From positions 1 through 21,419 of IMG/VR virus record IMGVR_UViG_3300010354_000816: a stretch of 21,419 nt of DNA; one strand, given 5' to 3'. A model generated the notes under the pieces. The model did no database searches. It was not told the DNA's origin and saw only the letters and a program-made list of their open reading frames with translations. This DNA is from a virus. The stretch's first letter is position 1, and each line of letters starts with the position of its first letter. Positions 1-17,824 of the stretch are shown piece after piece. The position numbers were made by a program, and so were the translations under genes.

Positions 1-200
1 ACCAGTTCCAGTTCTACCCTTCCTTTTAAATATAACCTTACCACCATCGGACGGAATAATAACTTCCTTTGCAGCAAGTCCTGCAATAAAAGGTCTATCG
101 TCAACATCCATAACAAAATTTATTTCACCTGATCCAGTTCCTTCAACTTCTAGATAAAAACTTGCTCCTTGTTTAATAAACTTTGCTTTTAAATTTGAAG
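1..200 (-). repeat. Direct repeat, copy 2 (distal)
   Basis: This is the distal copy of a 200-bp in-frame repeat inside the large structural gene. By hand alignment to 1855-2054 there are no gaps and 17 mismatches. All mismatches lie in 1-100, while 101-200 is identical to 1955-2054. The copy may continue past the left edge. Confidence 0.9.
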
Positions 201-3135
201 GTATCGAAGATGGTGAAACCGAAGGAGATCTCCAATCTTGAGTGCTAAAAATTTTAGTATCAATAACACTTTGATTTTCGTTCACTACATTAAAAACTTC
301 TGTAGTTATAGTATGTCTTCCCTTTTCAAGATAAACTTTTGTAAGTTTTGGATTATTTACATTAAATCCATCCAATGAAGAAATTTCTTTACCGTCAATT
401 AAAATTCTACCATTATCATCTTTAGTTCCCTTTACTCCATAAAATCCAGAATAAGGAAGATTAATTTGCCAACTATTGGAGAAGGTAGTTCCGGATGCAT
501 CACTACCCGGAGTGTCTAATGGAAGAACGGGTGATATTGCATATCTATTCATAAACCTACTCCATCCGGGACTTTCAAAAACTTTTGTAGAAGTTTCTAC
601 AGTATCTTTGGATCCACTTGGAGAAGATTCAAGTCTATAAGTTAAGTCAAAAGTAGTCCTACCTCCTATTTTTCCTTTGTTTGAACTAATAAATTTACCT
701 ATATTTGCTTTAACTTGAATATCATCATTATCATTAGTAGATCCAATAGCATCTGCAAATATTCTATTAGAATCTCCTATTCCACCTTCCTTTCTTTTTG
801 TGCCTTCTTTTATAAGACCTTGTTCGACTTTTTTATTTGTCGATTGGTTTACTGAAATGACATAATTAACATTTTTTCTAATGCTAATTTTATCTACTCG
901 CGTGGTGCCACTTTTGTCTGCTCCATCAAGTTTAAATGTGTGTTGACCATCAACTGCAGTGAATGTAAGAGAAAGATATCTTGATTCTCTCCCTTCACCA
1001 AAGACGGCAAATTTAACTTCTTGAGTTTCTGACACTGGTTCAGGCGTAGAAGTAGAAATTGTTTCTTGAAAAATAGTCTTAGATCCAGAGAACCTTACTG
1101 GATACCACTTCTGACTTGATCCAGGAAATCTTGTAGTCCAAATAGGATTGGGTGGACATCTTCCAATTTGTTCTGGTGGTTGTTCTTGAGGAACTGGTGG
1201 AAGTGGAGCATCAATAGTCATCGAAACTCCCATTGGATTTTGATTCCAAGATTTTGAAGAAATAACTTCTATGTCTTCTGCTGAATTTTTTAATACAAAT
1301 TTACATCTATTTCGATTAACATCGAAAAATTTTCCATTAGTTGCCTTAATAACCAAATCATTAAAATCATTATCAGTGCTATCTTCTAGTCGAAGAACTT
1401 TTCCATCAACTCTCAACTTTCTATCATTTGGTTTTGCTATAACTTGATATACTTTTCCAACTTCAAGTTTTCTAGTTATTTCATCATCTTTACTTGCAGT
1501 CAATAAATCAACTATTTCAATCGAACTGCTATCAGATCCCGCCTCACTTATCTTAAAAGTTACTTCTGTTTTTTTCCTCGTTGCACCAGAAATTGCTGCA
1601 GTTGACGTGGTAGTTGACGTTGATGTTGTTTCACCCTTTATACTAGCAATAGTAATCTTAATGTTTTCATCATCCCCATCAGCATCACGAATACCAAGAC
1701 GGTTTGAATTGTTTATAATTGGTCCTCTTGCGCCAACGCCAGCACCAACAATTTGTATTGGTCCATATTTTTTACCGGCAGTAAACTTACCTTTTTCCTT
1801 TATGGTTTCTTTTTCTGGAATAGTAGCGTCAAATAAAGAATTGCCCTTAAACGCACCAGTTCCAGTTAGTCCTTTCCTTTTAAATATAACCTTACCACCA
1901 TCAGATGGAATAATAACCTCTCTTGCCGCAAGTCCAGCAAAATTAGGATTATCATCAACATCCATAACAAAATTTATTTCACCTGATCCAGTTCCTTCAA
2001 CTTCTAGATAAAAACTTGCTCCTTGTTTAATAAACTTTGCTTTTAAATTTGAAGTTGCACTAGTGGTTGTAGTTGTAGTTGTGGGTGCAGTAGTTGGTTT
2101 CTGTAGAATATTTAAAAGATCAATTTTTACAATGTGATTTCCTTCAGAAATTGTTTTCTGTAAAGCAGATGGATTATCATTAAATGATTTCAAATCACCA
2201 ACTAAATTACCATCAACAAAAACCTGTGCAGTATCATCGCCTACGCCTCTGAAAATATACTCTCCACTGATAGGAAAATTTAACTCCCACTCCATTGAAA
2301 AAATTCTTCCTGCTTCATCACTTCCAACCAAATCAGAAGGTTTAACAGGAGAAACTGCATATTGATTCATAAACTCTCCCCATTCGGGACGAGTTACAAA
2401 TTTAGCATCCTGTGTTGCATAAGATTTTTCAATAGTGTAAACTCTATCTGGTTGAGAAGTTCTTGTTGTCCAAAAAGGTTTCTTAAGTGCTCTTTGGAAA
2501 ATTTCAATTTCCCTTTGAATAGGATCAGCACCAATCCTAGTATAAGTTTGAGGCTCCCAAGGACCAAGTTCTTCTCCATCGGGACCATATCTTTTTCCAT
2601 ATCCAATATCAGTATCTTCGCAGAGTTCATATTCTTCAAAGTCTTCTTCTCCCTCAAAGACTTCTACTTCATCTGCAGTTTCTCCAAGAACAGCAGTTAA
2701 AACAGCACCATTACCAATCTGACAATCATCTCTTGCCGCTACAATTGGTGAATATTGATAACCATAACCACCAGTAATAATATCGACTGCAAGTAAGGAT
2801 CCATCTCTTCCAATGATAGGATTTCCAGCTGCACCAACTCCATCACCACCAAAAAATTGAATTCTTGGTGGACCACACTCTCGATATTCTTGAATGCCTG
2901 CACACTCTCCTTCGGATACAACTAAGTCATTTGGCGTAAGACGATTGACCTCATTAATACTCAAATAACGAATGTTATTATCTCCATCCCTAAAAACAAA
3001 AGTTGTTCCTGGATTATTCTTTGCATAATCATTCGCTTCACATATAGAAACGCCATCAACATACCCCAAAGTTGGGTCAACGTATCCAACTTTGATATCA
3101 TCTTTAGTAGGTGCAGAAAATAAATTAAAAGACAT
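1..3135 (-). CDS. Large modular virion structural protein with internal repeats (partial, C-terminus off the left edge)
   Basis: The frame is open from the ATG at 3135 to the window edge, giving about 1045 visible residues with no end. The N-terminal part has Gly/Tyr-rich segments (ITGGYGYQYSPIV) of a kind common in phage tail proteins. Two PA14-like beta-sandwich segments follow (roughly residues 255-345 and 860-950; cores W-x-L-N-F-P-x-S-G-x-Y-x-F and F-V-D-G). Each is followed by a Thr- or Ser/Pro-rich linker and a second module starting SNLKAKFIKQGASFYLEV (about 361 and 979). Between the copies are acidic loops such as DNDFNDLVIK that could bind calcium. An AAGGAG sits only 2 nt before the ATG, and a near-consensus late box (AATAAATA, 3155-3162) lies upstream. 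It follows the gp5-like gene, so a baseplate-, tail- or fibre-associated surface protein is likely. PA14-type folds often bind glycans, so adhesion is an inference. I do not recognise a named family for the whole protein. Confidence 0.8.
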   Translation of the reverse strand, partial: MSFNLFSAPTKDDIKVGYVDPTLGYVDGVSICEANDYAKNNPGTTFVFRDGDNNIRYLSINEVNRLTPNDLVVSEGECAGIQEYRECGPPRIQFFGGDGVGAAGNPIIGRDGSLLAVDIITGGYGYQYSPIVAARDDCQIGNGAVLTAVLGETADEVEVFEGEEDFEEYELCEDTDIGYGKRYGPDGEELGPWEPQTYTRIGADPIQREIEIFQRALKKPFWTTRTSQPDRVYTIEKSYATQDAKFVTRPEWGEFMNQYAVSPVKPSDLVGSDEAGRIFSMEWELNFPISGEYIFRGVGDDTAQVFVDGNLVGDLKSFNDNPSALQKTISEGNHIVKIDLLNILQKPTTAPTTTTTTTSATSNLKAKFIKQGASFYLEVEGTGSGEINFVMDVDDNPNFAGLAAREVIIPSDGGKVIFKRKGLTGTGAFKGNSLFDATIPEKETIKEKGKFTAGKKYGPIQIVGAGVGARGPIINNSNRLGIRDADGDDENIKITIASIKGETTSTSTTTSTAAISGATRKKTEVTFKISEAGSDSSSIEIVDLLTASKDDEITRKLEVGKVYQVIAKPNDRKLRVDGKVLRLEDSTDNDFNDLVIKATNGKFFDVNRNRCKFVLKNSAEDIEVISSKSWNQNPMGVSMTIDAPLPPVPQEQPPEQIGRCPPNPIWTTRFPGSSQKWYPVRFSGSKTIFQETISTSTPEPVSETQEVKFAVFGEGRESRYLSLTFTAVDGQHTFKLDGADKSGTTRVDKISIRKNVNYVISVNQSTNKKVEQGLIKEGTKRKEGGIGDSNRIFADAIGSTNDNDDIQVKANIGKFISSNKGKIGGRTTFDLTYRLESSPSGSKDTVETSTKVFESPGWSRFMNRYAISPVLPLDTPGSDASGTTFSNSWQINLPYSGFYGVKGTKDDNGRILIDGKEISSLDGFNVNNPKLTKVYLEKGRHTITTEVFNVVNENQSVIDTKIFSTQDWRSPSVSPSSIPSNLKAKFIKQGASFYLEVEGTGSGEINFVMDVDDRPFIAGLAAKEVIIPSDGGKVIFKRKGRTGTG
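1855..2054 (-). repeat. Direct repeat, copy 1 (proximal)
   Basis: This is the proximal copy of the 200-bp repeat, offset by exactly 1854 bp (618 codons) from the copy at 1-200. It encodes the start of the SNLKAKFIKQGASFYLEV module. Similarity stops sharply at 2054, where a Thr-rich linker coded by repeated GTAGTT-like units begins. Confidence 0.9.
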
Positions 3136-4971: not shown

Positions 4972-5132
4972 TAGTTATTAATCATTTTGTTTAAAATAAA
5001 TTGAACCTCATCATATGCTTCTTCTGGAGTACTATAAGGCATATATTCACATCTATCAAATGTTCTTACCTCTCCATTCTCATTTATAAAATATTTTGGA
5101 GAATATGTTTTATTCCAAATCATTTCATTCAT
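4971..5132 (-). CDS. Small hypothetical protein (53 aa)
   Basis: This short ORF begins MNEMIWNKTYSPKYF and ends with a helical-looking segment (PEEAYDEVQFILNKM). I do not recognise a family. I chose the ATG at 5132 because it overlaps the CP12-like stop (ATGAATGA), which fits coupled translation. A GTG at 5168 and an ATG at 5153 would extend it upstream, deep into the previous gene. The stop shares one base with the gp5-like start. No membrane segment or cysteine motif is visible. Its place between two overlapping genes supports it being real. Confidence 0.55.
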   Translation of the reverse strand: MNEMIWNKTYSPKYFINENGEVRTFDRCEYMPYSTPEEAYDEVQFILNKMINN

Positions 5133-5337
5133 AAACTCTACATTCAAGAGCATCTGGATGACTGTCACAATATAACTCTAGTGATGTTGGATCGCGATTA
5201 TCATCTGGATGATTGGCTTGGTATTGCTCCAAATCTCCAAGCTCACCCTGTAAATGACGACGCCTTTGTCCACTTATATTAGGATTATCTAATTCGTCAC
5301 GATCATCATTAATGTGTTGTTGAAGGGATCTATCCAT
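5125..5337 (-). CDS. cp12: CP12-like Calvin-cycle regulatory protein
   Basis: This is a 70-aa, highly acidic and hydrophilic protein. The C-terminus LELYCDSHPDALECRVYE matches the CP12 signature: a Cys pair spaced nine residues apart (C57 and C66) around a D/N-P turn, ending in ECR(V/I)Y. CP12 is a redox-controlled, mostly disordered linker that ties glyceraldehyde-3-phosphate dehydrogenase and phosphoribulokinase into an inactive complex, shutting down carbon fixation. The N-terminal Cys pair of plant and many cyanobacterial CP12s is absent, so only the C-terminal loop can form. Cyanophage CP12 is thought to divert host carbon from the Calvin cycle towards the pentose phosphate pathway. I used the ATG at 5337 rather than an in-frame GTG at 5355. 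The odd feature is its location among tail-hub genes. Confidence 0.8.
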   Translation of the reverse strand: MDRSLQQHINDDRDELDNPNISGQRRRHLQGELGDLEQYQANHPDDNRDPTSLELYCDSHPDALECRVYE

Positions 5338-5376
5338 AAGAAAGAAACATAACACTATTACTATTACTATTTAACA

Positions 5377-6798: not shown

Positions 6799-9700
6799 CT
6801 ACATAAAAAGATCATCTTGAGATGGATCTTCCGCGCTACCACTAAATCCATTAGAACCATTATAAATTGACATAATCATTGGTGGGACAATAGTTACTGA
6901 AGAACTTTCTGGAACATAATATGTATAGTCTTCTTCAGTTTCTGGATATCCATCTTCTGTGTACTGACTTAGTATTGATATCAAATTTTCTGATGCCATT
7001 TTTCTTTGAGATATAGTTTCAACTTGATTAATAAGGTCATAGAATTTAATTCCAAATAGTTCTACAGAATCTGCATCGACAACATATTCTCCTGGGTGAG
7101 TTATATAATATCCAGTACTATCAATATATCCACCAGTAAACATCATACCTTTAATCATATTTCGGATAGAATCTCCACCAGATCCAGGCGAATCTTTCTT
7201 ATATAATTGAAATAAATCCCAACGTTCTCCTGTACCTCCCCATAATCTAGGTCCATAATTATCAGTAATATTTCTTCCATCTTTATTTGATCCCGCTTCA
7301 GCATGTGTCATTACATTTTTGACATTGACATCAGAAGGTTTCCATCCCCACGCCTTTGCTATTTTGGCAGATTCTTCTGCCATCTTTTGGTATTGAATAC
7401 TTTTAACTGGTATTGACCATGGTTCTGGATTACCCCCCATAGCAGCAACACTAAGTCCTACAGAGTTACTATTTCTTTTTTCGGTATGTTGACCTCTTTG
7501 ATCATATGGAATAACCCTGTGTATTTTTCCATCACCAGTGATAATAGTGTGATAAGATCCTCGCGGAACTGATTGGTATCCACCAGCAGTCCAATGCAAA
7601 TATATTTGCTTTCCCTTTCCATCTCCCAAGTTATTAAAAGAAGCATTATCTGGCGTTGAAATATCTTTATCTCTTTTTATTTTCAAGTTCGCATAATCTT
7701 CATCCGTTCCGTGAAGTTTATCCTTTCCACCTTTATAACCTCCATAGAAATAAAATCCATACTTACTGGCAAGTTGTGCAAGTTTTTCATTAATCCCACC
7801 TTTTGATTTACTAAAGTCATTACCAACTCCAAGTATTCTAACTCTTGCTCCGATCGATTTTAAATAAGAAAATTGTGCTTCAACAGAACTCCAATCATCT
7901 GTTGAATTTGCGATACCTGTAGATAGATCAACCAATACTCCTTTTAAGACATCACCTCTTGCTTTTAAAATGGAAAGAACCGCTGCAGAATTTCTTCCAA
8001 CTTTAGTATCATCAGAATCTGTTCCAGATCCAGTTCTTCCAGCAAATCCGTGAGCAATACTATCTCCGATTACAAATTGCGCTGTACCACCAAACTGTGC
8101 TAATGGATTTTCTGTTCCGGAACCACTACCAGAAGATTGCTGGGATTTTTCTGCGCTACCCACAGAACTGTTCACCTTTAAAGTTAATTGATTCATTAGA
8201 TCTTTTAAAATAGAATCAATTGAACTTGATATTGACTCTTTCGTAATCCTGGTCACCCAATTAGAAATATCAAGGGAACCAGTTTCATCACTAATTACAC
8301 TATCTGTTCCGGGAACTTTAGTTGTATCTAAAAGATTATTGAAAAAATTATTGAGTCCACCACCAACTGCCTTGTAGTCACTTTCAGATGGTTTATCGCC
8401 AAATAAAGTTTTGACGCCCATTTCAAGTATTGGATGTAAAAACTTTGTTGTTCCAACAATATCATAAGTTTTTTCCAAATATTTAAAAGAACTTACTGTA
8501 CCAGGATCATTTGGTTTTGAATAAAATGTTTGTATTTTTGGAGAATTACTATCTTTATAAGGTTGAGTTCCTCCAACATCAATTCCTGGCTGCAAAGGTG
8601 TAGTAGGGATTTCAACAACTCTCTTTGCTTTTACCTTTTTTCCAACAGTTCTAGTAACAGTCTCAGTATAAACTCCACCACGAGTCACAGGCCCTCCAGA
8701 AGCATATCCCATAGACTTTACTGCTTGATCGCCAAATAAACTTCCAAAAGATCCTTGTTTCTTTGCAAGTGTTCCAAAACTCAAAACGTTAACAATTTGC
8801 CTTAATTGCTCTCTTATTCTTGCATCTAATTTTCCTAAATTTTCTCTTTGAGTTTTGATTCCTTTTGCATCTCCAGTGAGAGACATTATGCCAAAATTGA
8901 TAAGTTCAATTGCATATCTAAAGGGAGCACCAATTACATCAAGTAAAGTTCCGATTCCATTAGAAATAAAATTGTAGAACCTCATTCCGGGAATGGCTAT
9001 CGTATTGTAAAATCCAACCTTCAAAAATCTCATAAAAGGATTTGGATCTTTTTGTGCTTCTGCTAATCCAGTATATGCATCCTTTTCAATTTTTGTCGTA
9101 AATTTTCTAAGTTGGAACATTCCTTCGCCTAAAGCAGAAGATATAAGTCCAACCCCACCAACAATTCCTACTGCAGCACGAGCGCCAACTTGTCCAGCAA
9201 CTCTTAGAGCTCCTTGCTGAGATGCTCTTTGCGCTCCTTGTTGAACGACTCTATCTCTTACGGTTTCAACTGCTTGCTGCGCAACAGACCCTCTTGCATC
9301 ACTCTCAACCAGATCACTGAATAACATACCAGCAATGAACATCGAGTTCATTACTTTAGTTGCAAGGTCTAAAGTTCTATTATAATTTTCAAGACCCCTA
9401 TCGCCACCCAATAATTTTGCTTGTTGTTTTCCGAAATCAACAATCCTATAAACCTTATCAATAAAGGTGACCATTGCATTTAACAAAGACCCACCAAACT
9501 CAACTATAAACTCACTGAATTTTAGAGCGCCAATTAATACCCCTTTTAGTTTTGGTAGATGGGGTAAAATTTTAATTGTGAACGCACCAAGTAAGACCTT
9601 AAATAGGAAATTCTTTACAATATCCAAAAATCCAAGTTTTGGGACAGAAAATTTATTTCCAACTTGTTTTTCTTGACCATCTGAAAGATCTTCTATTTTT

Positions 9701-9858
9701 CTTTCTTTCTCTTCAAATTTTTTTCTTTCGTCAAATAATCTTTGTTTTTTAAAAACTACATCCCTAAACTTGTTGTTTTCTCCAACAAGTTTCTCTACAC
9801 GAATAACTTGCTTTTTTATCAGATTTACTGTTAAATTTTTGGGTTGAATATATGCCAT
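6799..9858 (-). CDS. Tape-measure-like tail protein carrying SGNH hydrolase and Amidase_2 domains
   Basis: This 1019-aa protein has three parts. The scaffold (1 to about 585) starts with a charged coiled-coil-like stretch, then a hydrophobic LFKVLLGAFTIKILPHLPKL and a GAPFRYAIELI block. The cargo (about 590-895) begins with an SGNH/GDSL hydrolase: GDS with Ser600, Asn680 in GVGND, and Asp713/His716 in the D-x-x-H motif. An Amidase_2 (N-acetylmuramoyl-L-alanine amidase) domain follows, with likely zinc ligands His755 (LHWTAGG), His852 (THAEAG) and Asp881. The C-terminal part (about 900-1019) has HPGEYVVDADSVELFG. The scaffold and tail are clearly paralogous to the upstream 1035-aa protein. Amidase_2 cuts the stem peptide from MurNAc, and the SGNH domain may remove acyl groups from wall or surface sugars. 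This suggests a tail-borne wall-opening enzyme for entry rather than an endolysin. A GAGGA site with good spacing lies 4-10 nt inside the upstream gene's end. Confidence 0.8.
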   Translation of the reverse strand: MAYIQPKNLTVNLIKKQVIRVEKLVGENNKFRDVVFKKQRLFDERKKFEEKERKIEDLSDGQEKQVGNKFSVPKLGFLDIVKNFLFKVLLGAFTIKILPHLPKLKGVLIGALKFSEFIVEFGGSLLNAMVTFIDKVYRIVDFGKQQAKLLGGDRGLENYNRTLDLATKVMNSMFIAGMLFSDLVESDARGSVAQQAVETVRDRVVQQGAQRASQQGALRVAGQVGARAAVGIVGGVGLISSALGEGMFQLRKFTTKIEKDAYTGLAEAQKDPNPFMRFLKVGFYNTIAIPGMRFYNFISNGIGTLLDVIGAPFRYAIELINFGIMSLTGDAKGIKTQRENLGKLDARIREQLRQIVNVLSFGTLAKKQGSFGSLFGDQAVKSMGYASGGPVTRGGVYTETVTRTVGKKVKAKRVVEIPTTPLQPGIDVGGTQPYKDSNSPKIQTFYSKPNDPGTVSSFKYLEKTYDIVGTTKFLHPILEMGVKTLFGDKPSESDYKAVGGGLNNFFNNLLDTTKVPGTDSVISDETGSLDISNWVTRITKESISSSIDSILKDLMNQLTLKVNSSVGSAEKSQQSSGSGSGTENPLAQFGGTAQFVIGDSIAHGFAGRTGSGTDSDDTKVGRNSAAVLSILKARGDVLKGVLVDLSTGIANSTDDWSSVEAQFSYLKSIGARVRILGVGNDFSKSKGGINEKLAQLASKYGFYFYGGYKGGKDKLHGTDEDYANLKIKRDKDISTPDNASFNNLGDGKGKQIYLHWTAGGYQSVPRGSYHTIITGDGKIHRVIPYDQRGQHTEKRNSNSVGLSVAAMGGNPEPWSIPVKSIQYQKMAEESAKIAKAWGWKPSDVNVKNVMTHAEAGSNKDGRNITDNYGPRLWGGTGERWDLFQLYKKDSPGSGGDSIRNMIKGMMFTGGYIDSTGYYITHPGEYVVDADSVELFGIKFYDLINQVETISQRKMASENLISILSQYTEDGYPETEEDYTYYVPESSSVTIVPPMIMSIYNGSNGFSGSAEDPSQDDLFM

Positions 9859-9862
9859 TTAC

Positions 9863-12800
9863 TTATCCTCTTGTGTAACACATATCTTGTTCCCAATTAG
9901 GAGACTCTTCTCCACCTCCACCAAAAGATGATAAAGTTGAAACATAAATTGGAGGAGACATTATTATAGTATTTTCTGATTCTTCAAAAATAACTTCTGG
10001 TCTTTGATCAATTTTTCTTCCGGTATATTTGCTTAAATGTTGTATAAGTTGAGAAGATTTTTGTGCTCTCTGATTTTCATTTTCTACATTATTAATCAAA
10101 GTAAAAAATGAAATACCACCAAATAAATCAACAGAATCTTTATCAATTACATACTCACCTTTATGTAGAAGTTTAGTTCCACCAGATATCGTTGGTCCGC
10201 CACTTTGGCGAGAACCAGTAAATGGAGATTCTTTACTGTATCTTGACAATGGATTGAATCTAGAAAGAACTGCAGATTTATCTCCACCAGTATCACTTGG
10301 ATTTGTTGCCGCTTCCCAGTGAAGGTGAGGTCCACTTGATCTTCCAGTGCTACCAAGAACACCAAGAACAGTTCCTGCAGTCACTTTTTGTCCTCGTTTT
10401 ACAAATGCGGGTTTATTCATATGACCATAGAAGTGAGCAATTCCAAAACTATCAATCCAATTAACATAATACCCATATCCACCAGGATCTTCTCCAACAT
10501 CTTCAACCACACCAGAAGTAAATGCTTTTAAGTACTCACCAACATTTCCAGAAATATCGACCCCCATATGCATTCCTGGTGACAAAGCAAGTTTCCTCAT
10601 TCCCATTTCAGAAGTTACAATATGCCCTCCTGCTGGTTGTTGAACTGGTGGTGGTAAAGTTCCATCCGGCATTTCTGGATCACAGACACAATCAGAAACA
10701 TTAGCGGCAGGAGAATCTGGAGCAATTTTTGCTGTTGATGGACTTCCTTGACCTCTATATTTTGCCACATTAGCATTATATCTGCCAAGAAATCCTTTTG
10801 TGGCGTTATTTTGCTGACTGCCTCCAGGTAATGAAGGCCAAGTTCCATTTAGTTTATAGGCAACCTTCATTGGATCAGTTCTCAAATCTTTAATAATACC
10901 ATTAACTCCATAACCATAACGATTAACTGCAAGTTGCCACGCTGCTCTATCTTGGTTTGCGGGAGAAAAATCTTTTAATCCCAACTGTTTAGCAAGTGGA
11001 TCCCAAGTTGTAGAAAGAAACTGATATCTACCAGCAGCATCACTACTTCTTCCATCAGGTGTTCGCCTTCCAATTCTTGGATGGTCTTTATAACTATCAA
11101 AGGTTGCTCCACCATATCTGATATTGTATCCTCTAGCTTCTGCGCCAGCAATAGCATCTAAAAGTGCCTTTCCTTCTGGTGGAATTTCTCCAGCAACAAC
11201 TTCTCCACCGCCACCAGATTCATCTGGACATTCACAATCCATATCATTTTTTTCTTTGACAATTTCTGGTAGTTTCAATCCCAACTGATTTCTAAGTTGA
11301 TTTTCAATAAGACCGAAAGTATTTCGAAGAGATGACAAAATCTCACCTTTAATAAAAGGTTTTAATCCATCAGTTCCCAAAGAAGAATAAATCTGATTTG
11401 CTACCTGCGGATTTTGTTCTTGAGCACCAAATAATAAAAATGAAGATAATGTTCCAGACACAATATCATAATCTGCATCAGTAACCTTATCTCCAAATAT
11501 AGACTGTATAGTTAATCCCAATAATGGACCAACATAATTTGCTCCCACCAAAGATTGATAAGAATCATCTATGTATCCATATTGATTCATTACTCCATCA
11601 TCATCAGAATGTGGAAAGACTTTTTGAATCACTCCAGAACCACCAACTGCAGATCCGGGACTTATAACTGACAAGTCTTTTTTAAATGTTCTTGGTATCT
11701 TGACCTCATCTTCATCGCCAACACTTCTTGTATATCCACCACCAGCAAACTTTTTAATCACTAATCCACCACGATAATAACCTATATCCTTTGCTGCTTT
11801 TTCACCATATAAACTTCCAAAAGATCCAGGAGTTTGTAATTTCTGCGAAACTCCTTTCATACCCACAAAACTAAACAAAGGAGCAAGTATTGAAAAATGT
11901 TCTCTAATACCATCACGAACTCTTGCATCAAACTTGCCAAGATTTTTATTCTGCTTATCAAGACCTTCACGATCATCATTTAATTTCATCACTGCTGCAC
12001 GAATTAATTCAACACCATATCTGAATGGAGCACCAACAATATCAAATAAAACTCCAGTACCATTTAATAACCATATTGCTGGACCAAGAGTTGATGATAA
12101 CCACCCAAAAAATCCTTTCTTTAAAAATCTAGTAATTGGATTTTTATCCTGAGATGCTTCAATTAACTTACCAGTAGTCCAACCTTGAAGTTGTTTTCCA
12201 AACTTCTTAATTTGAAATGCACCTTCACCTATTGCCGAAGAAAGAAGTCCAACGCCAAGAACAATCCCAGCAGCACCTAAAGGTCCAATTGCAGTTCTTA
12301 CTCCTTGCTTCGTAAACTCTTGCACTGCTTTGTCAGCAACCTGTTGTTTTATTTGTTGTTCAATAATTTCTGTACCAGCATCAACTGCTTTTTTTGATGC
12401 CGCTCCACCAAGACCAATACCACCAAAATCACTAAACAACATTCCAGCAATAATGATAGAATTTAATAAAGAATTAGCCTGGTTGTTCATTGCGTCAAGA
12501 GAATCAATTGCTTTTTGTCCACCAATACTCTTAACCATTTTTCTAGCGTGGTCTGCCGCTTGATATCCTTTATCGACAAAAGTTATTAAACCATTCAATA
12601 ACTTTCCACTTATGTCAAGTATAAAATCACTAACTCTCAAAATGAGAATGAATACTTTCATCAATTGTGGTAGATATTTCAAAAGACGAACTGCTATAAA
12701 CCCTAACAAAACATTTGTAATAAATTTCTTTAAGGAATCTAAAAAACCAAGTTTTTTTCCTAGTTTTTTTATTGGTCTTCCAAGAAAACCCAATACCTTC

Positions 12801-12970
12801 TCTAAAGTGTTTTCATAATTAATTCTACTTTCTCTTTCATCATTCCTTCTCGCGCCCTCACTACTTTTTTTCTGAACAAGTAGAGATGACTTAATTAATT
12901 TCTCTTTCGCAATAAACTGCTTCCTTATTAATTTAAAGTTTGTTGTGAATGGAGACTCTATTTTTGCCAT
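9863..12970 (-). CDS. Tape-measure-like tail protein carrying GH104 transglycosylase and M23 peptidase domains
   Basis: This 1035-aa protein is a paralogue of its downstream neighbour. The scaffold (1 to about 575) includes FITNVLLGFIAVRLLKYLPQL and IVGAPFRYGVELI. Residues 600-740 closely resemble the lambda R endolysin (GH104 lytic transglycosylase): likely catalytic Glu611, then YKDHPR, AAGRYQFLSTTWD and KQLGLKDFSPANQD. Residues 780-905 form an M23 (LytM-type) metallopeptidase with H801-x3-D805 and H882-x-H884 plus His850. The C-terminal region has HKGEYVIDKDSVDLFG, shared with the neighbour. Two CxC pairs (579/581 and 761/763) bracket the GH104 domain. One protein thus carries both a glycan-cutting and a peptide-cutting activity, probably acting on peptidoglycan during DNA injection. 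Domain identity is strong; placement in the tail tube or hub is inferred from context. Confidence 0.85.
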   Translation of the reverse strand: MAKIESPFTTNFKLIRKQFIAKEKLIKSSLLVQKKSSEGARRNDERESRINYENTLEKVLGFLGRPIKKLGKKLGFLDSLKKFITNVLLGFIAVRLLKYLPQLMKVFILILRVSDFILDISGKLLNGLITFVDKGYQAADHARKMVKSIGGQKAIDSLDAMNNQANSLLNSIIIAGMLFSDFGGIGLGGAASKKAVDAGTEIIEQQIKQQVADKAVQEFTKQGVRTAIGPLGAAGIVLGVGLLSSAIGEGAFQIKKFGKQLQGWTTGKLIEASQDKNPITRFLKKGFFGWLSSTLGPAIWLLNGTGVLFDIVGAPFRYGVELIRAAVMKLNDDREGLDKQNKNLGKFDARVRDGIREHFSILAPLFSFVGMKGVSQKLQTPGSFGSLYGEKAAKDIGYYRGGLVIKKFAGGGYTRSVGDEDEVKIPRTFKKDLSVISPGSAVGGSGVIQKVFPHSDDDGVMNQYGYIDDSYQSLVGANYVGPLLGLTIQSIFGDKVTDADYDIVSGTLSSFLLFGAQEQNPQVANQIYSSLGTDGLKPFIKGEILSSLRNTFGLIENQLRNQLGLKLPEIVKEKNDMDCECPDESGGGGEVVAGEIPPEGKALLDAIAGAEARGYNIRYGGATFDSYKDHPRIGRRTPDGRSSDAAGRYQFLSTTWDPLAKQLGLKDFSPANQDRAAWQLAVNRYGYGVNGIIKDLRTDPMKVAYKLNGTWPSLPGGSQQNNATKGFLGRYNANVAKYRGQGSPSTAKIAPDSPAANVSDCVCDPEMPDGTLPPPVQQPAGGHIVTSEMGMRKLALSPGMHMGVDISGNVGEYLKAFTSGVVEDVGEDPGGYGYYVNWIDSFGIAHFYGHMNKPAFVKRGQKVTAGTVLGVLGSTGRSSGPHLHWEAATNPSDTGGDKSAVLSRFNPLSRYSKESPFTGSRQSGGPTISGGTKLLHKGEYVIDKDSVDLFGGISFFTLINNVENENQRAQKSSQLIQHLSKYTGRKIDQRPEVIFEESENTIIMSPPIYVSTLSSFGGGGEESPNWEQDMCYTRG

Positions 12971-15325: not shown

Positions 15326-15508
15326 TTATAGTTGCGAACTTTGCTGTTGTTGCTTGAGTTTTTCCTCTTCAAGATGCTGTTCGAGAAGACCAACATAAAT
15401 GTCTCTCTCCCACGGTATCATACTTTCAATTTCCCATAATGAATATTTATGGTACTGCATCAATGCAAAATTCAACCTAAAATAATTTTCAAGGTCCATA
15501 TGGACCAT
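15326..15508 (-). CDS. Short ORF after gp26; likely tail assembly chaperone extension, also readable by -1 frameshift
   Basis: This 60-aa ORF ends in a charged helix (LLEQHLEEEKLKQQQQ) and contains SLWEIESMIPWERDIYVGLL. A Trp/Met/Tyr-containing helix of this kind is reminiscent of the short second reading frame of phage tail assembly chaperones (lambda T, HK97 gp15). It starts 2 nt after the gp26 stop (TAG-GA-ATG at 15508; a second ATG at 15499 has AGGA upstream). The same frame stays open upstream through the gp26 end to 15535, so a -1 slip on the gp26 message would give a 301-residue fusion. In T4, gene 51 follows gene 26, so it may correspond to gp51, but it is far shorter. It ends 6 nt before the 780-aa tape-measure-like gene. 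Confidence 0.7.
   Translation of the reverse strand: MVHMDLENYFRLNFALMQYHKYSLWEIESMIPWERDIYVGLLEQHLEEEKLKQQQQSSQL
15493..15506 (-). other. Perfect palindrome (GGTCC-ATAT-GGACC), candidate frameshift-stimulating hairpin
   Basis: The 14-bp sequence is fully self-complementary. As RNA it gives a 5-bp stem (4 G-C pairs) with a 4-nt loop. It begins 10 nt after the slippery heptamer on the gp26 transcript and covers the start region of the 60-aa ORF. It could stimulate -1 slippage, or hold the internal start codons in a structure opened by ribosomes finishing gp26. Confidence 0.6.
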
Positions 15509-15510
15509 TC

Positions 15511-16230
15511 CTATGCGAAAAAAGATGCTAACCCTTCAAGTACGACTTCGCTTTCTTTTTGAGTTTTAGGATTTTTAACAGTCACTTTATGAGATAACTT
15601 AGGCATTGTTTCAAAGAATTTTTCAATTTCTTTAAATTGAAATGAATTCATTTGATCAAGAAACTCTGTAAGTTCCTTTTTAGTTACATCAGCAGTAGAC
15701 CAAACTTCTTCCTCAGTATAAATTTTATCAATACAAGATGCAATCAAATCAAAAGATTGCTCCATAGCATTTTCATTTTTAAAATCAAAATTTGTTTTAA
15801 TGAATTGTTCAAGTGATGGATACTTCATCTCCATCATAATACTATTATCTACTTTGATTTTATTAGTATGTTCTTCGTTTTTCTGAACTTTAATACTATC
15901 TAAATTAATACTTACAGTAGTATTCGTTTCATTATCGTCTGGACAAATAATATTAACTTCTACCTCCTCTCCAACAGACTTGCCACGAATATTTAAAAAC
16001 AAATATTCAATATCAAAAGTTGGTAGTGTTTCTACTTTAATATCTTTTGTTAAAATGCAATTTTTAATTACAGTCTTAATTGCATTAGTAATTTGCTTAT
16101 TATCTTCACTCTCTAAAGCAATTACTAAAAGTTTTTCTTCCTTTACCAAGAAAGGTCTGTAACGAATTGTCTTTTCAGTTGAAGGCAATTCAAGTTCATA
16201 TGTTGGTGTAGAAATCTTAGGTAATGGCAT
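15511..16230 (-). CDS. 26: gp26-type baseplate hub / tail assembly protein
   Basis: This 239-aa protein looks like the T4_baseplate family (T4 gp26, 208 aa), recognised by the N-terminal IRYRPFLVKEEKLLVIALES and the following helix with a conserved Cys (IKTVIKNCILTKDI). The C-terminal half is helical and acidic. In T4, gp26 is needed for central hub assembly. It lies between the gp54-type gene and the tape-measure-like genes, as expected for the module. AGGA sits 7 nt before the ATG at 16230. Its last codons (TCT TTT TTC GCA TAG) contain a perfect -1 slippery heptamer, so two products are possible: gp26 ending at Ala239, and a longer gp26-extension fusion. Family identity is by pattern; a role as a tail chaperone is inferred. 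Confidence 0.8.
   Translation of the reverse strand: MPLPKISTPTYELELPSTEKTIRYRPFLVKEEKLLVIALESEDNKQITNAIKTVIKNCILTKDIKVETLPTFDIEYLFLNIRGKSVGEEVEVNIICPDDNETNTTVSINLDSIKVQKNEEHTNKIKVDNSIMMEMKYPSLEQFIKTNFDFKNENAMEQSFDLIASCIDKIYTEEEVWSTADVTKKELTEFLDQMNSFQFKEIEKFFETMPKLSHKVTVKNPKTQKESEVVLEGLASFFA
15517..15523 (-). promoter_or_regulatory. Candidate -1 programmed frameshift site (T_TTT_TTC)
   Basis: In the gp26 reading frame the codons TCT TTT TTC contain the X_XXY_YYZ heptamer T_TTT_TTC, two codons before the TAG stop. After a -1 slip the ribosome would read CGC ATA GGA ATG (R-I-G-M) straight into the 60-aa ORF, giving 238 + 63 = 301 residues. A perfect hairpin lies 10 nt downstream. Position, phase and spacing fit known -1 sites in phage tail assembly chaperone genes. 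The frameshift itself is inferred. Confidence 0.65.
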
Positions 16231-17254: not shown

Positions 17255-17824
17255 ATGAAAAAGATTATCAAATTCAATACAAAAAAATTAAACGAAGTAT
17301 TTAATAATGATTCTACGCCAAAAATTTTATACGAAGAATATGAAGGGTATTCTGGATATGAAGGAGAGTTCAATCCATTTTATGGTAAGAAGCATTCAAA
17401 AGAAACTAAAGAAAAATTAAGACAAATAACATTAGAACTTTGTAAAAATGAATCTTTTAGAATGAGTAGGACAAATTGTGGAGAAAAAAATGAAATGCAT
17501 AAAAGTGAAAGATTTGGAGAACTAAATCCAATGTGGGGTAAAACTCATTCTGAAGATGCAAAAGAAAAACAAAGGATCAAAAGAAAAGAATGGTTTAAAA
17601 ATAATGAAAGTCCAAACAAAGGTAAACCTTGTTCAGAAAGCACAAAGAAAGCAATATCCGATAAAAATAGTAAAGAATATAAATTAATTTCTCCCAAAGG
17701 AGAAATTGTAGAAATCAAAAACCTCACTAAATTTGCAAAAGAAAATAATTTAAGTATTGGATGTCTACAACACGTTGTTAATGGGAGAAATAAATCACAT
17801 AAGGGTTGGAAAAATGCCGCGTGA
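17255..17824 (+). CDS. NUMOD-repeat protein: homing endonuclease DNA-binding region without a nuclease domain
   Basis: This 189-aa basic protein contains three NUMOD3-type helical repeats: FNPFYGKKHSKETKEK (about 39-54), LNPMWGKTHSEDAKEK (90-105) and NKGKPCSESTKK (121-132). It ends with a NUMOD1/IENR-like helix-turn-helix (about 141-187, EYKLISPKG, FAKENNLSIGCLQHVVNG, KGWK). These modules normally form the DNA-recognition tail of GIY-YIG or HNH homing endonucleases such as T4 Seg proteins. The N-terminal 38 residues show neither a GIY-YIG core nor an HNH motif, so the catalytic part is missing. It could be a decayed endonuclease or a retained DNA-binding protein. It has no evident Shine-Dalgarno, lies at the head of the block as an inserted gene would, and its end overlaps the gp4 start by 11 bp. 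Confidence 0.8.
   Translation: MKKIIKFNTKKLNEVFNNDSTPKILYEEYEGYSGYEGEFNPFYGKKHSKETKEKLRQITLELCKNESFRMSRTNCGEKNEMHKSERFGELNPMWGKTHSEDAKEKQRIKRKEWFKNNESPNKGKPCSESTKKAISDKNSKEYKLISPKGEIVEIKNLTKFAKENNLSIGCLQHVVNGRNKSHKGWKNAA

Follow-up and report, generated by a model that had tools for sequence, protein, structure and literature searches.

The window analysed here, a virus record of 21,419 bases, carries tail genes of the T4-like cyanophage type. On its minus strand, gp26 (16230-15511) encodes 239 residues, the short product of the 0 frame and a candidate N form of a tail assembly chaperone, and its 3' end reads TCT TTT TTC GCA TAG. These codons hold a slippery heptamer, T_TTT_TTC (15523-15517, minus strand), which lies in phase with gp26 (the last base of TCT, then TTT TTC), with the TAG stop of the 0 frame (15513-15511, minus strand) one codon past it. 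After a 10-nt spacer (15516-15507, minus strand), the sequence GGTCC-ATAT-GGACC gives a hairpin at 15506-15493 on the same strand, with GGTCC at 15506-15502, the ATAT loop at 15501-15498 and GGACC at 15497-15493. Around the stop, the -1 frame stays open over 22 nt on the upstream side and 185 nt on the downstream side, and its extension (15517-15326, minus strand; 63 residues, RIGMVHMDL...) contains a gp51 ORF of 60 aa (15508-15326, minus strand). A fusion of gp26 with this frame is predicted to have 301 aa and to read ...LASFF|RIGMVHMDLENYF... across the junction. The window has ATG codons at 15508 and 15499, the second of them preceded by AGGA. This layout of heptamer, open -1 frame, 301-aa fusion and stem at 10 nt had been claimed in a sequence-only reading of the window, and every coordinate proved correct.

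Upstream of gp26 we found the tail tube gene (17159-16272, minus strand), with matches to PF23849 Phage_TTP_2 (E 2.2e-13) and to the tail tube family phrog_45 (E 1e-37). The next gene after gp51 (15319-12977, minus strand; 780 aa) occupies the tape-measure position and gave weak matches to phrog tape-measure families (E 0.009-0.027). Annotations of HTVC008M and phiM12 likewise name a tape measure, or a tape-measure-like gene, downstream of gp51.

In-phase heptamers of the form X_XXY_YYZ are common in the window, with 74 of them in the 6710 codons of its main genes. At this rate, about 11% of genes (about one in nine) would be expected to show one by chance in their last ten codons. The motif T_TTT_TTC occurs in phase twice among the main genes, and gp26 is the only one of them with an in-phase heptamer in its last 40 nt. 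Regarding the hairpin, its minimum free energy of -8.3 kcal/mol corresponds to z = -1.05 against shuffled sequences, and single-sequence folding does not make it significant or exceptional on its own. Because heptamers are common and the hairpin reaches a z of only -1.05, the heptamer and hairpin of this single sequence are weak evidence, suggestive and not decisive.

Conservation of the heptamer and of the -1 frame

Relatives were picked from IMG/VR and from named phages by similarity of the gp26 protein only, and their loci were fetched with peptide patterns located outside the junction, which gave a set of 262 distinct junctions of 160 nt. An in-phase T_TTT_TTN is kept in 259 of them (243 with TTC, 15 with TTT, and a single TTG, in RL38J1), so 15 junctions have seven T's. 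The -1 frame is open for at least 90 nt past the stop in 261 of the 262, and five additional named phages show the same pattern. A comparison of relatives for heptamer, open -1 frame and downstream stem had been proposed together with the original claim; it came out in favour of the claim, with the first two kept almost throughout and a downstream stem conserved in forms that vary by clade. In 228 of 258 junctions the heptamer and the stop are separated by 3 nt. Mosig-type Pelagibacter phages have their 0-frame stop 21 nt farther on, with the position of the heptamer unchanged.

Bases 1 to 6 of the heptamer show no change at all in 223 junctions of equal spacing. In these same junctions the preceding codon is AGT, TCT, AAT, GAT, GCT or GGT, ending in T without exception, while T-ending codons account for only 47-81% of the Ser, Gly, Asn and Asp codons elsewhere in gp26. 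Third-position changes were counted on a tree of 251 gp26 sequences. Their median is 43 over the 57 codon columns that are well conserved, and the two Phe codons of the heptamer are the two lowest columns, with 0 and 3. An internal control is provided by the FF of KFFETMP, around 30 codons upstream, which is encoded as TTT TTC in 8 of 251 sequences and mostly as TTC TTT or TTT TTT. Since 259 of 262 junctions keep the heptamer, and none of the 223 changes at bases 1 to 6, these sequences argue decisively that the junction pattern goes far beyond chance. From the heptamer onward, variation follows the triplet periodicity of the -1 frame, also in the codons ahead of any ATG, and the -1 frame after the heptamer is under coding selection. 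We also considered whether a Shine-Dalgarno sequence within gp26, ahead of the heptamer, stimulates the slip in the manner of dnaX, and found no support for it: the Glu and Gly there are kept as residues, and the third bases of their codons are free to change (38 and 71 changes).

A closed -1 frame is seen in cyanophage S-SCSM1 (locus L082, 3715-3745), which keeps the heptamer and has an 11-nt insertion just after it that closes the frame after 4 codons. This insertion may be a sequencing error or a real loss. The distant relatives Cygsa01, Vibrio K362 and Serratia 2050H1 all lack an X_XXY_YYZ heptamer and carry (A/C/G)TT TTC in place of the full motif. In Serratia phage 2050H1 (locus L095, around 1980-2000), gp26 ends with CAG GTT TTC ATC TGA, and the -1 ORF does not open with an ATG. 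The G_GTT_TTC of this gp26 end resembles the slip site of T7 gene 10 and is possibly a variant slip site of that lineage.

Regarding the start codons of gp51, 125 of 258 junctions have no ATG, GTG or TTG in the stretch that separates the heptamer from the conserved core of gp51. In 34 additional junctions only GTG or TTG is found there, and an ATG precedes the core in 99 of the 258, the window included. KVP40, D491s, Bhz51 and Cygsa01 show an overlapping TAATG or TGATG at the gp26/gp51 junction. In databases, gp51 is unannotated in S-CAM4, ACG-2014b, ACG-2014d, ACG-2014i and P-RSM1, and the annotated start falls inside the conserved core in P-SSM7, Mosig and HTVC008M. As it has no codon to start from, gp51 probably does not exist as an independent second protein in many of these relatives.

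Aeromonas phage AS-yj (Ceceduovirus; locus L345, 2670-2850), which we take to be an Aeh1-type phage, reads AGT TTT TTC GCA TAA, followed by an unannotated gp51-like -1 extension without a start codon. Because AS-yj has both the site and the start-less extension, a frameshift likely accounts for the 'missing' gp51 of Aeh1-type phages, as judged from this one phage. Sullivan et al. 2010 had listed gp51 as missing only in Aeh1 (PMC3037559).

Hairpins downstream of the heptamer

Hairpins in the relatives begin mostly 6-10 nt past the heptamer, in registers that differ between clades. The clade of the window has GGTCC/GGACC and covariants of it, S-CAM4-like phages have CCCTCT/AGAGGG or ACTCTTCCA/TGGAAGGGT, Pelagibacter-like phages have GCCTCT/AGAGGC, and P-RSM1-like phages have CCTTCA/TGAAGG with a long loop. 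One fixed stem common to all clades is ruled out by these differences. The mean folding energy across the set is -10.5 kcal/mol, compared with -7.75 ± 0.13 kcal/mol when the synonymous codons of the -1 frame are permuted among sequences and the protein is kept, a test that ignores relatedness and so overstates the significance. The hairpins exceed what the encoded protein requires.

Within the clade of the window, the stem positions pair in 82% of cases against 77.3 ± 0.7% after permutation, with the significance again overstated because relatedness is ignored. Compensatory cells, changed on both sides, number 50 against 19.3 ± 7.2 in the permuted sets, which likewise take no account of relatedness. 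Mapped on the tree, this stem underwent 22 events from pair to pair with both sides changed and 37 from pair to broken, and because of the latter it is not strictly required. For the S-CAM4-like and P-RSM1-like clades, fixed-register tests gave no covariation, although their stems pair well. Taken as a predicted element, the hairpin is a probable stimulator of frameshifting.

Protein families and the two-gene arrangement of T4

The window's gp26 belongs to PF12322 T4_baseplate (E 2.3e-76) and matches phrog_150 (E 6.3e-81). The gp51 ORF with its -1 extension matches phrog_634, named 'baseplate hub assembly catalyst' (E 3e-27), and also positions 241-281 of phrog_150. An AlphaFold model of gp26, built from 55 sequences, reached a pLDDT of 90. 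For residues 1-90 of the model, the best VIA-align matches were the HK97 tail assembly chaperone 2ob9 (Z 8.0), 3fgx (Z 7.9) and the YqbN structure 3klu (Z 7.3), the last two of which we take to be tail assembly chaperone relatives; the next ones were 5ir0 (Z 4.9) and an unrelated chain (Z 4.0). A Foldseek search with the same model returned no match at E < 0.001, and the gp26 profile gave no meaningful match among PDB sequences. The model thus provides moderate evidence that the N-terminal fold of gp26 is chaperone-like.

T4 gp51, encoded by a separate gene and about 249 aa long, consists of an entire PF12322 domain (1-201, E 7.7e-55) with the gp51 tail after it, while T4 gp26 is PF12322 alone. 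The 60-aa gp51 ORF of the window matches the C-terminal part only, and the gp51 proteins of T4 and 44RR have both parts. By its domain content, T4 gp51 is a natural fusion of the gp26 and gp51 parts. Besides, a profile of the cyanophage fusion spans the junction in 44RR gp51 and in the fusions of phiM12, Bhz51 and RL38J1. In the tree, the T4-type gp26 and gp51 domains fall into two adjoining clades to which no single-copy form belongs, with a support of 88/86 that is not strong. Such a pattern would be expected from a duplication that took the place of the slip site in the T4-type lineage. The heptamer is absent from gp26 of T4 and of Klebsiella R3_1.

A probable frameshifted chaperone gene and its alternatives

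We consider it very probable, on the strength of these comparisons, that a programmed -1 frameshift at the end of gp26 gives a short and a long tail assembly chaperone. Most ribosomes would terminate at the TAG and release the 239-aa protein. A minority would slip back one base on T_TTT_TTC, with both Phe tRNAs pairing again on TTT, helped by the hairpin just downstream, and would go on in the gp51 frame to make the 301-aa fusion. The two products would act as tail assembly chaperones, playing the part that gpG and gpGT play in lambda. Phages of the T4/44RR type would make both from two genes, 26 and 51, a state for which a duplication with loss of the slip site is the simplest explanation. 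What we infer here is that the slip occurs, how often it does so, what the hairpin contributes and that the products work as chaperones. The sequence-only reading had taken gp26 and the following ORF for a G/T-type chaperone pair. The conservation, the fold of gp26 and the fused T4 gp51 speak for the pair, but the idea that the second ORF is a protein of its own probably does not hold for the many relatives where it has no start codon.

One could argue that no fusion is made and that re-initiation or translational coupling past the end of gp26 yields gp51 as a small protein by itself; the window reads TAG GA ATG at this point, and KVP40 reads TAATG. The two ATGs of the window (15508 and 15499), the AGGA ahead of the second, the overlapping TAATG or TGATG of KVP40, D491s, Bhz51 and Cygsa01, and the ATG present before the core in 99 of 258 relatives would all fit such a scheme. 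However, it fails to provide a start in the 125 of 258 junctions that have no ATG, GTG or TTG before the core, and would have to use GTG or TTG in 34 more. It also leaves unexplained both the invariant T_TTT_TTC and the T that ends an otherwise variable preceding codon, and it does not fit a -1 frame that is conserved as protein ahead of any start, or the fused gp51 of T4. Hence, we regard it as improbable.

Far less probable still is a slippage of the RNA polymerase on the six or seven T's, by which some mRNAs with missing or extra bases would encode the fusion. The homopolymer is indeed conserved, and seven T's are found in 15 junctions, but six is a short run for transcriptional slippage, and hairpins lying mostly 6-10 nt downstream, together with the strict phase, suit slippage of the ribosome. 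Finally, the heptamer might have no role and simply follow from a conserved Phe-Phe C-terminus in AT-rich DNA. With 74 in-phase heptamers per 6710 codons and a hairpin that is not significant alone, the window by itself would allow this reading. The conservation data, by contrast, already contradict it, given that the synonymous freedom used elsewhere in gp26 is not used at the heptamer and that the FF dipeptide around 30 codons upstream varies freely; we give it almost no credence.

As in G/GT of lambda and the conserved -1 frameshifted chaperones of long-tailed phages, gp26 lies downstream of a tail tube gene and is followed by a second ORF and then by a gene that is a putative tape measure. 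The frameshift proposed for gp26 also shares with these systems the -1 direction, a short and a long product (here predicted from sequence) and the chaperone-like fold of the first part. It differs from them in its protein family (PF12322), in a slip placed one codon before the stop, in the shortness of the extension (around 63 residues) and in the slip site itself, T_TTT_TTC here and G_GGA_AAG in lambda. Two separate genes encode the two chaperone forms in T4, 44RR and Klebsiella R3_1, whereas the gp26 locus studied here is a single one with a slip site.

Such a frameshift is not new in kind, its principle being already known for other tailed phages. Nor can we keep the earlier view that it was undescribed for T4-like phages: according to PMC10885494 and PMC12846349, Vladimirov, Gautam and Davidson 2022 (Virology 566:9-15) reported a short gene alongside a long fused one in some T4-like phages, and PMC12846349 credits them with poly-T slippery sites in T4-like short-form chaperone genes. 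As far as these citing papers tell, we infer that genes 26 and 51 are the ones referred to, which is consistent with T4 gp51 being PF12322 plus a tail and T4 gp26 being PF12322 alone. Our literature search, in which the 2022 study is represented by papers citing it, found no paper describing the gp26 slip site in cyanophages. In Vandenendeviridae and Andersonviridae, which are other phage families than those of the gp26 locus, a tail assembly chaperone frameshift has been described with the motif GTTTTT (PMC12846349). The ORF that we call gp51 is the shortened baseplate hub assembly catalyst of Sullivan et al. 2010, who found that cyanophage gp51 is without the first ~200 residues of T4 gp51 and did not consider a frameshift (PMC3037559). 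The simplest reading is that gp26, by way of the slip, would provide the absent ~200 residues. Features that may be new are how widely the pattern is conserved, the absent start codons, the varied hairpins that switch register and the explanation of gp51 in Aeh1-type phages.

Taking all of this together as one wider proposal, we see about even chances that Kyanoviridae gp51 is generally only the frameshifted tail of gp26, with a slip stimulated by hairpins that switch register between clades via synonymous codons. In the same proposal, KVP40-type, Aeh1-type and several other T4-like lineages would share the layout, which would explain the 'missing' gp51 of Aeh1-type phages and would predate the two-gene state of T4. 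T4-like cyanophages are among the most abundant viruses of the ocean, and their annotations of gp26 as a baseplate hub subunit and of gp51 as a separate hub assembly catalyst both look misleading. If the two are one frameshifted chaperone gene, annotation would be corrected in hundreds of genomes, start-less and unannotated gp51 would be recovered, and cyanophages would be tied to the lambda-type scheme of tail assembly. A true frameshift would also offer a compact set of natural sites that can be tested in cyanobacteria.

Some other features of the window are worth recording. An ORF with a NUMOD3 domain (17255-17824, plus strand; E 1.4e-14), by its domain probably a homing endonuclease, is flanked by the tail tube gene and by the next gene on the plus strand, and overlaps the ORF of the latter. 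Two large tail genes (6799-9858 and 9863-12970, both on the minus strand) are adjacent paralogues with 35.6% identity over 533 columns that differ in the cell-wall enzyme they bear, an amidase in one and an M23 peptidase in the other, and either of them could contribute to the tape measure. A CP12 domain protein (PF02672, E 3e-12) is encoded at 5125-5355 on the minus strand; CP12 is a host-like regulator of the Calvin cycle and a known auxiliary metabolic gene of cyanophages. A long ORF of the tail region (1-3135, minus strand) contains a PA14 domain (E 2.9e-8), and one of its segments, LYLEVEGTGSGEINFVMDVDD, is repeated internally.
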